Assembly: GCA_012718855.1 (NCBI GenBank)
Contig: JAAYBS010000059.1
Location: forward strand, 1-39,588
Direction: 5' to 3'
DNA length: 39,588 nt
Source of the DNA: Syntrophomonadaceae bacterium
GTDB taxonomy: Bacteria > Bacillota > Syntrophomonadia > Syntrophomonadales > Syntrophomonadaceae
The position numbers and the translations under genes are program-made. Below, one piece after another: positions 33,691 to 39,361 of the stretch. How positions within the stretch are numbered: the stretch's first letter is position 1; every line of letters begins with the position of its first letter. The notes under the pieces were generated by a model. That model did not search any database and was not told the DNA's origin. It worked only from the letters and a program-made list of their open reading frames with translations.

Positions 33691-33928
33691 TTAACCAGTT
33701 CCCCCCTCCAGGTTAAAACATTTTAGTTGACACAGTCTATCTCTGGCTTTTAATCCTTATTTGATACCTTGCATTACCATTCCTGAACAATTTTAAAACT
33801 TCGGTCAACTATGATAAAATTCAACATGATTAATCAGAATCCTGCCCCATAATACTATTTTGCACATAAATCTAATGTTTGTATTTGTAATATTGTGCCA
33901 ATATCATTAATATCGAAACCTTATAAAC

Positions 33929-34675
33929 TTATAGGGGTGTAATCTCAATTTTACCCCAGGCAGTCAGGGCATCATCTTTAATAATTAGCACCCCGGTAAC
34001 TCCTTCTATATTCTTTGCTACCTCAATAGCTGTCATAAAATCATCCCTGGTTTGAACAAGATTCCCTATTCGGGTGGCAACTGCATCGGCTAAAGCCGTA
34101 TTGGGACTCTTTATCATTACCGCATCAGCTTTACCAAAACTGAGGCTATGACCAACGGTTCCTGAAGAGGTACAAACTCCCAGAGGCATTTCATCAGTTT
34201 CTACCGTTATACCTATCCGGGAACTGAACTCTGATTGGCCGGCAAATACCGCAATAGTTCTATTACGCTTACAATTCAGATATATATCGCCACCATTTTC
34301 AACTATTACTTCCTGAACCCTGGAGAGCAGTTGTTCGCCCACATTTTGTGCAACTGCACCTGCTACAGCTGCCATAGGACCTACTCCGGCAATCCAGGCA
34401 GCCTCCGCCATACTTGCTACTAGAGGTGTTGCCCGGGAATAAACCTTTACCGGCAACAATGAATGTTGAAAATCCGGGTCAAAATCAATATAGGTCTCCA
34501 ATTCTGCCCGCAGTTTGATAATGCTTTGACGCGTGAACTCAATCAGGCTGTCATGATAACTGGCTTTGTCGACCCCAATTGATAAATCAGTCTGCTTTAT
34601 TTTCACATTAAAATAATGCAAATCCTTGCTCTGATGCAAACTGCGATAATTACGCCTGACAAAATCCCCTGACAT
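33929..34675 (-). CDS. UPF0280 family protein (COG2122, ApbE-like fold)
   Basis: PLVASMAEAAWIAGVGPMAAVAGAVAQNVGEQLL, ENGGDIYLN, PLGVCTSSGTVGHSLSFGKADAV. Confidence 0.9.
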   Translation of the reverse strand: MSGDFVRRNYRSLHQSKDLHYFNVKIKQTDLSIGVDKASYHDSLIEFTRQSIIKLRAELETYIDFDPDFQHSLLPVKVYSRATPLVASMAEAAWIAGVGPMAAVAGAVAQNVGEQLLSRVQEVIVENGGDIYLNCKRNRTIAVFAGQSEFSSRIGITVETDEMPLGVCTSSGTVGHSLSFGKADAVMIKSPNTALADAVATRIGNLVQTRDDFMTAIEVAKNIEGVTGVLIIKDDALTAWGKIEITPL

Positions 34676-34677
34676 AT

Positions 34678-35109
34678 CTACCTTGCGGCCCCCTGAACTT
34701 CAAAATGAAGCCTTATAGCCCTGGTTGGACAACATTCCAGACACATCTCACAGATAACACATTTGGAATTATCAAAGGATACTTCCATGGAATCGCGGTC
34801 TATTGATAATGCTTCCGTCGGACAAAAAGATGCACAGGCACCACACTGAATGCAAGTATCTTCATCCCACATTACTGTCTCACTCAAAGGTTCCACAATT
34901 ACGCCCAGACTCTTTAAAAAACTGATCCCCTCTTCATATTTGGCACGTTCACCTTCCAGTTCAGTTACCAGATAACCTTCTTTCTGCGGGTTGATATCAG
35001 CCTTTAGAATATTAACGATAAGGTCATAATTTTTAACTAATCGGTATATAATGGGCTGCTCTGATTGAGCTGCCGAAAAATAACATACAACTTTATCTTT
35101 CAATGCCAA
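34678..35109 (-). CDS. NIL-domain / 4Fe-4S ferredoxin (homocysteine biosynthesis-associated)
   Basis: N-terminal NIL-type domain (PIIYRLVKNYDLIVNILKADINPQKEGYLVTELEG) plus CIQCGACASFCPTEAL and CVICEMCLECCPTRAI. Confidence 0.9.
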   Translation of the reverse strand: MALKDKVVCYFSAAQSEQPIIYRLVKNYDLIVNILKADINPQKEGYLVTELEGERAKYEEGISFLKSLGVIVEPLSETVMWDEDTCIQCGACASFCPTEALSIDRDSMEVSFDNSKCVICEMCLECCPTRAIRLHFEVQGAAR

Positions 35110-35117
35110 TCTCTCCT

Positions 35118-36341
35118 TTAGCGATTAATGGTAAATCCGTTTGGACTACGTTCCGGAATGGACTTGAAATCTATCTCTGCATCAGCCAGTGGTAATTGTG
35201 CTACCGGCTGAGTTAATTCAAAACTGCCCTGTTTAATCCACTCCTGTAATGTACGGGCAATTTTTTTGGCCCGCGGATAACTGGATTGCGGTGTAGAAAC
35301 TACCATTTTGCCGTTAATTTCCACACGCCCGCTCTTTAAATCCCGATAATTTACATAGCCTAAATCTATAGGTTTTTTATATGGATAACCTTCGGCATAA
35401 TCTACTACCGGACAGAATATATCTTCGTCCTTGACTGCAGTATAGTAAAGTATTTCTTCATTTAGTATTGGTATTGGTATACCTAATCCTACTGCCATAG
35501 TGGCTCCATAACCAACATAACTTAAACCTACCAGCCAGTTGGGATCCATTTGCTTTAAATCTCCAATTACGGTTAATGTACCTGCCGGGACCCGGGGCAC
35601 ACCATTTTCACCTCGTTCTACATTGGGATGATGCTGAGTTCCATTCCAGGCAACATAACCTATTCCGCCGCCCAGAAATATTTTAGTACCCAGACCAATA
35701 GTTTTATAGTGCGGATCATTTAGCAACGGGCTTAACTGTCCGGCAGAAGAATAACTGGCGTTGCCCAGTTTGGGCTTTAAAATACCCATGTAAGTATACA
35801 AAGTGCGATCGCCCAAATTTACCGCACAATTATAATTCTGATATCCATTACGTGGGTTAAATAGAAAAGCTTCATTAACATCATTAATGGTTATTAAAGT
35901 ATCAACTTTCTTGTTTGGGTAACAATCTGTGCCATAAGCAACCGCTTCCAGCCTTATCTCCCTGCCTGCCACCAGGTCCTGAATGACATGTCCGCCCCCA
36001 TAAGTAAACCTTCCCGGGAACACTTTGTTTTCCGGATCAGTTTCCGGAAGCTGGGCAGCTCCGATATAAGCATCAACGGCAGCAATTCCGCTGTAAGCCT
36101 CAACCCCATTGAGCCATACTTTTTTCATCTTTATACGTGGATTGGAATGACCGAAATTTATAAATGCACCGGATGAACACATAGGTCCAAAGGTACCAGT
36201 AGTTACAACATCAATCTCCCGGGCTGCCTTCTCAACTCCCTTTTCTGCTACTATAGCAATAACTTCCTCGGCAGTTACAACCACTGCCTCTCCTCGACGA
36301 ATTTTAGCATTAATCTCTTCGTAAGTCTTTTCGTAAGCCAT
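35118..36341 (-). CDS. DUF39/COG1900 homocysteine biosynthesis protein (L-aspartate semialdehyde sulfurtransferase family)
   Basis: 407 aa; VVTTGTFGPMCSSGAFINFGHSNPRIKM, GVEAYSGIAAVDAYIGA, YGTDCYPNKK, GLGTKIFLGGGIGYVAWNGTQHHP. Confidence 0.92.
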   Translation of the reverse strand: MAYEKTYEEINAKIRRGEAVVVTAEEVIAIVAEKGVEKAAREIDVVTTGTFGPMCSSGAFINFGHSNPRIKMKKVWLNGVEAYSGIAAVDAYIGAAQLPETDPENKVFPGRFTYGGGHVIQDLVAGREIRLEAVAYGTDCYPNKKVDTLITINDVNEAFLFNPRNGYQNYNCAVNLGDRTLYTYMGILKPKLGNASYSSAGQLSPLLNDPHYKTIGLGTKIFLGGGIGYVAWNGTQHHPNVERGENGVPRVPAGTLTVIGDLKQMDPNWLVGLSYVGYGATMAVGLGIPIPILNEEILYYTAVKDEDIFCPVVDYAEGYPYKKPIDLGYVNYRDLKSGRVEINGKMVVSTPQSSYPRAKKIARTLQEWIKQGSFELTQPVAQLPLADAEIDFKSIPERSPNGFTINR

Positions 36342-36356
36342 AACGAAACTCCCCCC

Positions 36357-38864
36357 TTAATTAATTATACTTAATAATCGCTGAGCAACCGTAACAGCTG
36401 CCCGTGCGTCTTCAGAATAAGCATCTGCTCCAATTTGCTGTGAATAATCCTCAGTTAACACTGCTCCTCCCACCATGACCTTGCAGGGCAGACCCCGATC
36501 TTTTACACCGTCAATTATATCTTTCATACGGGGCATAGTAGTAGTCATTAAGGCACTGAGTCCAATAATATCAGCCTTTTCAGCTTCCGCTGCGTTTAGA
36601 ATTACTTCTGCGGAAACATCCTTACCCAGGTCAATCACTTTGAAACCATAGTTTTCCAGTAAAACACATACGATGTTTTTGCCAATATCGTGTATATCGC
36701 CTTCAACTGTTGCCATTATAATTACTCCATTGTTGGCTCCGGCATCATCAGATAAAAAGGGTTTTACAATGGTAAAAGCATGTTTCATCGTTTCCGCCGC
36801 TCTCATCAGCTGCGGAAGGAAATATTTTTTCTGGTCATAAAGCTGACCGGCCTTCTCAATGCCCGGAATTAATCCCTGATTTACAATATCCAGCGCAGGC
36901 AGCTTTTCCTCATTAAGAGCTTTATGCAATAAAGAATCAATCTCCTGGAGACCACCCTCCAATACTGCCCGGGATAATTTAGACATTATATTATCTTCCA
37001 CGGTCTCGGTTGCCTCAACCGGTTTTCCCGTATCTGCAACCGGTTTTTCCATCCGCCCTACCAGTTCAGGAATATTACATTGACTGCAAATTTCAGCCCT
37101 GCCACCAGCGGCTACAATGGTACCGGCCGGTTTATAATCGCGATAAGTTTCAATATATTTACTGCAGCCCGGATCACGGTTAAGTATTACTCCGGCAGCA
37201 GCAACCACATCCATCATACGTTGATCAAAAGGATTGACAATGGGCAAATCCAGTCCGGCGGCCATAGCCATGGCTAAATAAGCTGAATTAATTATTTCCC
37301 TCCCCGGTAAACCATGCGATACATTACTTACTCCCAGAACAGTTCCTACCGGGAGCTCCTGCTTTAAATTACTAAGAGCACCAATAGTCTCCATTACCTG
37401 AGCCTGTTCGGCGCTGGCGGTTTTTACCAGGGTATCAATAAAAATATCCTCATCCCGCAGCCCATACTCTTTGGCCCGTGCATATATCTTCCGGGCAATT
37501 TCAACCCGACCAGCTGCCGTATCCGGTATCCCTGATTCATCCAGGCATAAGCCCAGTACAGCAGCACCGTATTTTTTAGCCAGAGGCAGAATTAATTCCA
37601 GCTGTTTTTCCTCTCCAGTAGTAGAATTGATTAATGGCCTGCCTACAAAGGTTTTCAGCCCCTCCTCAACTGCCAATATATTGGTTGAATCAATAGCTAC
37701 AGGAATATCAACTGCCGATTGAATCTCCTCTACTGCTTTGCGCATGGCCAACGGTTCATCAATTCCAGGTACACCCATATTTACATCAAGAATCGGAGCA
37801 CCAACTGCAACCTGTTTTTTAGCTTCGTCAATTACCATCTGCATACTGCCCTCTTTTATATCTTTCGCCAAAGCTTTGCGGGCAGTGGGGTTTATTCGTT
37901 CTCCAATAAAGGCAATTGACTGATTATCTATAATTACGTGTTTACTGCGCGAGCTCAAAGCCCTTATTTTTTCAGGATTTCTTTTCACCGGTGCCAATCC
38001 TTTTATTGCCCGGGCAATTGCCTGGATATGCTGCGGAGAGGTACCACAACAACCACCAATTATATTAGCTCCGGCTTCTCGCAATAATAAAGCCAATTCC
38101 GCCATAGTTTCCGGTGAATCCGGAAATACTGTAACTCCATTAATCAATTGCGGTATTCCGGCATTAGGTTCCACTGTTAAAAAAGTACTGGTATATTTAC
38201 CCATCTCACTGATAATGGGCAATAATTCACGGGCTCCGCCTGAACAATTAGCCCCGATAGCTAACGGTTGCAATGCCTCAAGAATTATTAAAGCCGTTAG
38301 CGGGTCAGTTCCCATCATAGTTCTTCCATCGCCCTCAAAAGTCATATGGGCTATTACCGGCAGGCTGGTATTTTGCCGGGCTGCAATCAAGGCAATACGC
38401 ATTTCACCAATATCAGTCATGGTTTCCAGCGAAATCAGATCTGCTCCGGCTTTTTCACAACTGATTACCTGCTCGGCATATACCTGATAAAGAATGTCAA
38501 AATAAGCTAACCCCATGGGCTTAAGCAATTGACCGGTAGGTCCAATGGATGCAGCTACCAGAGTTTGTTTACCGGCACTGCGTCGGGCTATGGCAACCAA
38601 TTCGGCATTAATCTCGGCAGCTCGTTTTTCAAGTCCATATTCGGCCAGTTTAAAAGCATTGCCGCCAAAAGTATTAGTTTGAATAATATCACTGCCGGCT
38701 TCAACATATTGACGATGAATATCTCCCAATATTTTAGGATTATCTATTCCAAATAATTCCGGACACTGACCGGGCTGCATACCCTTATCCTGCAACATAG
38801 TGCCCATAGCGCCATCTAATATTAAAATTCGTTCTTTCAATAATGCTTCCAGATCTACTCCCAC
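36357..38864 (-). CDS. metH: Cobalamin-dependent methionine synthase, short form (Hcy-binding + pterin-binding + B12-binding; no AdoMet activation domain)
   Basis: ILDGAMGTMLQ, GGCCGTSPQHI, GERINPTARKALAKDI, DVNMGVPG, EGDIHDIGKNIVCVLLENYGF; likely GTG start at 38864 with GAGGAGG upstream (ORF track extends to 38885). Confidence 0.94.
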   Translation of the reverse strand: MGVDLEALLKERILILDGAMGTMLQDKGMQPGQCPELFGIDNPKILGDIHRQYVEAGSDIIQTNTFGGNAFKLAEYGLEKRAAEINAELVAIARRSAGKQTLVAASIGPTGQLLKPMGLAYFDILYQVYAEQVISCEKAGADLISLETMTDIGEMRIALIAARQNTSLPVIAHMTFEGDGRTMMGTDPLTALIILEALQPLAIGANCSGGARELLPIISEMGKYTSTFLTVEPNAGIPQLINGVTVFPDSPETMAELALLLREAGANIIGGCCGTSPQHIQAIARAIKGLAPVKRNPEKIRALSSRSKHVIIDNQSIAFIGERINPTARKALAKDIKEGSMQMVIDEAKKQVAVGAPILDVNMGVPGIDEPLAMRKAVEEIQSAVDIPVAIDSTNILAVEEGLKTFVGRPLINSTTGEEKQLELILPLAKKYGAAVLGLCLDESGIPDTAAGRVEIARKIYARAKEYGLRDEDIFIDTLVKTASAEQAQVMETIGALSNLKQELPVGTVLGVSNVSHGLPGREIINSAYLAMAMAAGLDLPIVNPFDQRMMDVVAAAGVILNRDPGCSKYIETYRDYKPAGTIVAAGGRAEICSQCNIPELVGRMEKPVADTGKPVEATETVEDNIMSKLSRAVLEGGLQEIDSLLHKALNEEKLPALDIVNQGLIPGIEKAGQLYDQKKYFLPQLMRAAETMKHAFTIVKPFLSDDAGANNGVIIMATVEGDIHDIGKNIVCVLLENYGFKVIDLGKDVSAEVILNAAEAEKADIIGLSALMTTTMPRMKDIIDGVKDRGLPCKVMVGGAVLTEDYSQQIGADAYSEDARAAVTVAQRLLSIIN

Positions 38865-38910
38865 TGTTATCCTCCTCACCTTCAATCATCATTTATAAAT
38901 AAACTAAAAA

Positions 38911-39046
38911 AACCCTCCTTAAAAGAGGGTTGCCTATCCCCTCTCATCTTCAGGGCTTTCCCCTGAGGAATTAGCACCATTCCAGTAATAATCTGGCGGT
39001 TGCCGGGTTTCATTGGGCCATTCCCTCCACCACTCTTGATAAGAGA
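38911..39046 (-). promoter_or_regulatory. SAM-I (S-box) riboswitch with downstream intrinsic terminator, leader of the metH operon
   Basis: Minus strand: CTCTTATCAAGAGTGGTGGAGGGAATGGCCCAATGAAACCCGGCAACCGCC...AATGGTGCTAATTCC...GATGAGAG then AACCCTC-TTTTAAG-GAGGGTTTTTTT. Confidence 0.97.
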
Positions 39047-39067: not shown

Positions 39068-39361
39068 TTAATCTTCTTTTGGCTGTTCATCCGGATATTC
39101 TTCGTTTAAATTATCCATGTCTACCTTATATTCCTGCGGTTCGGGCATTTTATTTTCTACAGGATTAGTCTGATTCATATCCGTATTCATCATATCACTA
39201 AACTCTTTTTTCACTCCCGATGTTGCCCGTTTGAATTCACCCATGGCTTTACCCATTCCCCGCGCAACTTCGGGTAATTTACCCGGTCCTACTACAATAA
39301 CTGCGACCAGTAATATGAGCATTAACTCCCAGGGACCAATATTCCCAATAAATCCAAACAT
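39068..39361 (-). CDS. tatA: Sec-independent (twin-arginine) translocase TatA/E-like protein
   Basis: IGPWELMLILLVAVIVVGPGKLPEVARGMGKAMGEFKRATSG. Confidence 0.94.
   Translation of the reverse strand: MFGFIGNIGPWELMLILLVAVIVVGPGKLPEVARGMGKAMGEFKRATSGVKKEFSDMMNTDMNQTNPVENKMPEPQEYKVDMDNLNEEYPDEQPKED

Follow-up and report, generated by a model that had tools for sequence, protein, structure and literature searches.

A SAM-I riboswitch heads a predicted direct-sulfuration methionine operon in a probable Syntrophomonadaceae bacterium

The stretch of DNA analysed here (the window, 39,588 nucleotides) is contig C31 of a 2.09-Mb genome that is 82.7% complete. On its minus strand the leader of a SAM-I (S-box) riboswitch is followed by four closely spaced genes, metH, HcyBio, NIL-ferredoxin and UPF0280. 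It is highly probable that they constitute a SAM-repressed methionine operon, in which the leader controls the synthesis of homocysteine from sulfide and aspartate semialdehyde and its subsequent methylation. The initial annotation of this region had proposed S-box control of such a direct-sulfuration module on the basis of a leader with a terminator in front of four close same-strand genes. All these elements were recovered, the coordinates given there are correct within one base, and the switch, the gene families and their arrangement support most of the proposal.

The aptamer is located at 38941–39045(-) and matches the full length (positions 1–108) of the Rfam covariance model RF00162 with 88.5 bits (gathering cut-off 44.4, E 6.8e-20). 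It is the only Rfam element in the window and the single RF00162 match across the window's own genome at its 82.7% completeness. The identity of the riboswitch is established by this covariance match and not by folding energy, the MFE z-score of the leader (-0.93) being not significant. The terminator scan places an intrinsic terminator of the expression platform at 38931–38911(-), formed by a 9-pair hairpin and a T-run (AACCCTCTTTTAAGGAGGGTT + TTTTTAGTTT). When P1 was forced in a constrained fold, the terminator hairpin formed; when the 5' strand of P1 was blocked, the antiterminator GAGAGGG:CCCUCUU was obtained, in which GAGAGGG comprises the end of the P1 3' strand together with the bases after it and CCCUCUU is the 5' arm of the terminator. 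The expression platform and P1 are mutually exclusive, which is the standard logic of a SAM-I off-switch. A hairpin with a T-run is found 3' of the aptamer in most of the 32 relatives' loci examined as well.

According to this logic, scarcity of SAM would let the leader antiterminator form, and RNA polymerase would read through metH, HcyBio, NIL-ferredoxin and UPF0280. Binding of SAM would stabilise P1 and withdraw its 3' strand from the antiterminator, so that transcription would stop before metH. The four genes are presumably co-transcribed and responsive to SAM in this organism. The promoter scan just upstream of the aptamer gave nothing above threshold, and a tatA-like gene of the same orientation (39068–39361(-)) ends 22 nt before the aptamer; read-through from tatA into the leader is therefore possible. 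A tatA-like gene is also situated close upstream in 11 of the 11 relatives checked.

The first gene (36357–38864(-)) starts with GTG, preceded by GAGGAGG, and codes for a short cobalamin-dependent methionine synthase MetH of 835 aa with the Pfam domains S-methyl_trans, Pterin_bind, B12-binding_2 and B12-binding. Its score against the full-length model TIGR02082 is 545.7 bits, below the cut-off of 1010.85, and the match covers model positions 1–859 of 1182; by Pfam and TIGR02082 matching the C-terminal reactivation domain is absent from the window protein. After a gap of 15 nt follows HcyBio (35118–36341(-)), a DUF39/COG1900a protein of 407 aa and a predicted aspartate-semialdehyde sulfurtransferase subunit, which matches PF01837 over the whole profile (524.5 bits, 1–349/349) and shows no match to a CBS domain. 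Its closest named relatives (79–83% identity) belong mostly to Syntrophomonadaceae and Syntrophomonas metagenome genomes. The third gene, 8 nt further (34678–35109(-)), encodes a NIL domain (PF09383) with two [4Fe-4S] ferredoxin motifs (PF00037, Fer4) and is the predicted reductant of the sulfuration. UPF0280/COG2122 (33929–34675(-)) follows after 2 nt; it matches NF003323 with 311.8 bits (cut-off 271) and is a homologue of PDB entry 2O34.

The sulfuration chemistry, and what each of the three downstream proteins contributes to it, are assigned here from published work on homologues. HcyBio, reduced by NIL-ferredoxin and aided by UPF0280, would transfer the sulfur of sulfide to aspartate semialdehyde and yield homocysteine with the homoserine intermediate bypassed, and the short MetH would methylate the product with methyl-THF. 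The module had been described as self-contained, which is overstated: aspartate semialdehyde, methyl-THF and B12 have to be supplied from outside the operon, as does the reactivation of B12. A candidate B12 reactivase for the short MetH is a RACo/RamA-like protein encoded on another contig of the same genome (C229:953–2746).

The nearest bacterial precedent is Desulfovibrio, where mutant fitness of D. vulgaris demonstrated a requirement for DUF39, NIL/ferredoxin and COG2122 in homocysteine synthesis (Price et al. 2018, PMC5764234). Both systems have the same three protein families, the same predicted reaction of aspartate semialdehyde with sulfide, a MetH that lacks the reactivation domain, and genome-encoded RamA/DUF4445-type proteins. 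They differ in arrangement: the tags DvMF_1464, DvMF_0262 and DvMF_0044 of D. vulgaris Miyazaki indicate three separate places, whereas in the window the genes are united with metH and a SAM-I switch in one operon. The S-box had been put forward as bacterial evidence that UPF0280 belongs to the pathway. It does provide a regulatory link, but it is not the first such evidence from a bacterium, as the fitness data on COG2122 in D. vulgaris are earlier (PMC5764234).

Residues C55 and C140 of HcyBio are conserved in 80 of 80 aligned bacterial sequences, the window included. In the methanogen enzyme MA1821 Cys54 is essential and Cys131 is helpful (PMC12068725); C55 and C140 appear to be their equivalents by position and spacing, in an alignment that does not itself contain MA1821. 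The eight Fe-S cysteines of NIL-ferredoxin are present in all 69 aligned sequences, and C168 of UPF0280 in 51 of 52. The lone exception (L160, an Atribacteria record) has alanine at this position. The one near-invariant cysteine of UPF0280 is a concrete residue to test. A sequence search of the PDB gave no solved structure of a HcyBio relative; the AlphaFold model of HcyBio is confident (pLDDT 90.3, pTM 0.88) and has no match among PDB folds (best E 0.13, TM about 0.1). For the UPF0280 profile 2O34 was the sole significant match in the PDB, and ApbE was not among the matches.

Conservation of the arrangement was surveyed in 54 genomes of the host's own family, probably Syntrophomonadaceae, which share ancestry, so that the counts are not independent events and the Fisher tests made on them do not give true probabilities. 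HcyBio (PF01837) is present in 42 of them. UPF0280 is found in 41 of these 42 and in none of the 12 genomes without HcyBio; the one HcyBio genome that lacks it is G040, whose contig breaks off 8 bases past the HcyBio match. HcyBio and UPF0280 lie on one strand with a spacing of about 0.56 kb, leaving room for NIL-ferredoxin, in most of 36 family genomes. In 34 genomes the contig with HcyBio also carries a SAM-I switch upstream of this gene, the distance being nearly always about 2.65 kb, i.e. the length of metH. The S-box link noted in the initial annotation is therefore present but not peculiar to the window genome, being general in the family and occurring also in other Bacillota.

The same 54 genomes were searched for alternative homocysteine routes by strong matches to PF01053 (MetB/C/Y type) and by PF04204 (MetA) and TIGR01392 (MetX). 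MetX above the TIGR01392 cut-off occurs in none of the 54. In the window's own genome neither MetA, MetX nor MetB/C/Y (metA, metX, metB, metC, metY) is detectable, its best PF01053 match scoring 51 bits vs 378–509 for full-length members; with 82.7% completeness such single-gene absences are weak alone. HcyBio without MetA and without a PF01053 enzyme is found in 24 genomes; 11 of these HcyBio-only genomes have a completeness of 96% or more, the one-contig G037 among them. In 14 family genomes HcyBio, MetA and PF01053 occur together, so HcyBio need not be the sole route wherever it is present; a further 10 have MetA and PF01053 only. In six of these 10 HcyBio-less genomes (G010, G017, G023, G034, G043, G044) a SAM-I switch is placed 93–125 nt before a PF01053 (MetY/MetB-type) gene, which is followed by metA. 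The same RNA class thus fronts whichever homocysteine route is present. The window agrees with known SAM-I methionine operons (RF00162) in aptamer, terminator, antiterminator logic and methionine-synthesis target; it differs in the DUF39-type homocysteine step, in place of which the HcyBio-less close relatives have their MetY/MetB-type and MetA genes. Direct sulfuration could help to explain methionine synthesis in syntrophs without MetA, MetX or MetB/C/Y.

These data bear on the question whether the product is homocysteine at all. COG1900 also includes coenzyme M synthase (PMC12068725), and HcyBio weakly matches the model of methanogenesis marker 16 (TIGR03287), so the gene set might make another thiol, as COG1900d MMP16 makes coenzyme M, and reside in a methionine operon merely through use or supply of sulfide. 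This seems very improbable. The marker 16 score (136.8 bits) is far under the cut-off of 363.95, HcyBio has no inserted ferredoxin and is accompanied by a separate NIL-ferredoxin as in L-ASST, and both COG1900a-type cysteines are invariant in the 80 sequences. Moreover, another homocysteine route was detected neither in the own genome nor in the 11 near-complete relatives, and the genes are adjacent to metH and under a SAM-I switch.

Beyond the family, a sample of 299 genomes from the phylum contained 100 with HcyBio. Among 80 HcyBio loci from named genomes, scanned with a covariance model built for this analysis (Rfam confirms a subset), 32 have a switch shortly before the HcyBio operon, and their record titles place all of them in Bacillota. 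Six loci of close Syntrophomonadaceae have it in front of metH. In Desulfosporosinus, Pelotomaculum, Thermincola, Thermacetogenium, Dethiobacter and some further genomes the switch is directly before HcyBio-NILFd-UPF0280, with no metH between. None of the loci of this set from Chloroflexota, Omnitrophota, Elusimicrobia or proteobacteria showed a SAM-I switch. Further SAM-I switches occur away from HcyBio (L124:9703–9809, L131:18064–18171).

One could suppose that the riboswitch governs metH alone, which would be ordinary for a SAM switch, and that an internal promoter mainly drives the three downstream genes; one promoter-like match (10/12) is indeed situated inside metH. However, such matches are no more frequent in the region than in shuffles (12 vs 14.7), the intergenic gaps are just 15, 8 and 2 nt, and both outside the family and in a second copy in genome G005 the switch directly precedes HcyBio with no metH between. 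We give this arrangement of control as slight a chance as a different thiol product.

Another close known counterpart is the L-aspartate semialdehyde sulfurtransferase MA1821-MA1822 of Methanosarcina acetivorans (PMC12068725). It is the same pair of COG1900a and NIL-ferredoxin, with the conserved cysteines apparently both present. In contrast to the window protein, the methanogen subunit carries a C-terminal CBS domain, which is thought to sense SAM. The bacterial HcyBio homologues checked have about 385–414 aa, too short for a CBS domain, except one 530-aa frame; we treat this domain as a feature of the methanogen L-ASST branch and not as a defining one for COG1900a/HcyBio. In many Bacillota SAM is sensed in the leader RNA rather than in a CBS domain. 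A strict exchange of CBS for a riboswitch was considered and rejected: HcyBio of Chloroflexota, Omnitrophota, Elusimicrobia and others has no room for CBS and no SAM-I nearby, and absence of CBS is thus not predictive of a riboswitch.

S-boxes before metX in Geobacter, as well as the lack of a known homocysteine route in Desulfovibrio, were described in 2004 (PMC545781). Our literature search gave no paper joining the S-box to DUF39, COG1900 or UPF0280; an earlier description is possible, most subscription journals, supplements and RegPrecise being outside its scope. The pathway and its parts are known, and the SAM-I link is well supported, yet expected for a methionine pathway of Bacillota. 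Its significance is that dozens of genomes provide regulatory and co-occurrence evidence, independent of Desulfovibrio genetics, for HcyBio, NIL-ferredoxin and UPF0280 as one methionine pathway in anaerobic Bacillota.

In G037 the operon runs on into cysK (TIGR01139, 413 bits; L172:2058–3020(-)), about 20 bp past UPF0280. Among 19 further family loci (L173–L191) cysK is directly behind UPF0280 in 12 and absent there in 7. This count excludes L192 (G005:C219), a second HcyBio-NILFd-UPF0280 set that lacks metH and is immediately preceded by a SAM-I switch of its own, in a genome with a reported contamination of 8%. The ancestral operon may have covered cysteine plus homocysteine synthesis. A more far-reaching version, which we consider rather unlikely, would be that metH-HcyBio-NILFd-UPF0280-cysK was a SAM-repressed sulfide-assimilation operon ancestral to the family, that UPF0280 acts as a sulfur carrier whose Cys168 persulfide loads Cys55 of HcyBio, and that SAM feedback operates on RNA here and on the protein CBS domain in methanogens. 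Comparison of the loci shows that in the window a gap of 238 nt (33691–33928) occupies the place between UPF0280 and nadE where many relatives have cysK; the best cysK match of the own genome is on contig C68.
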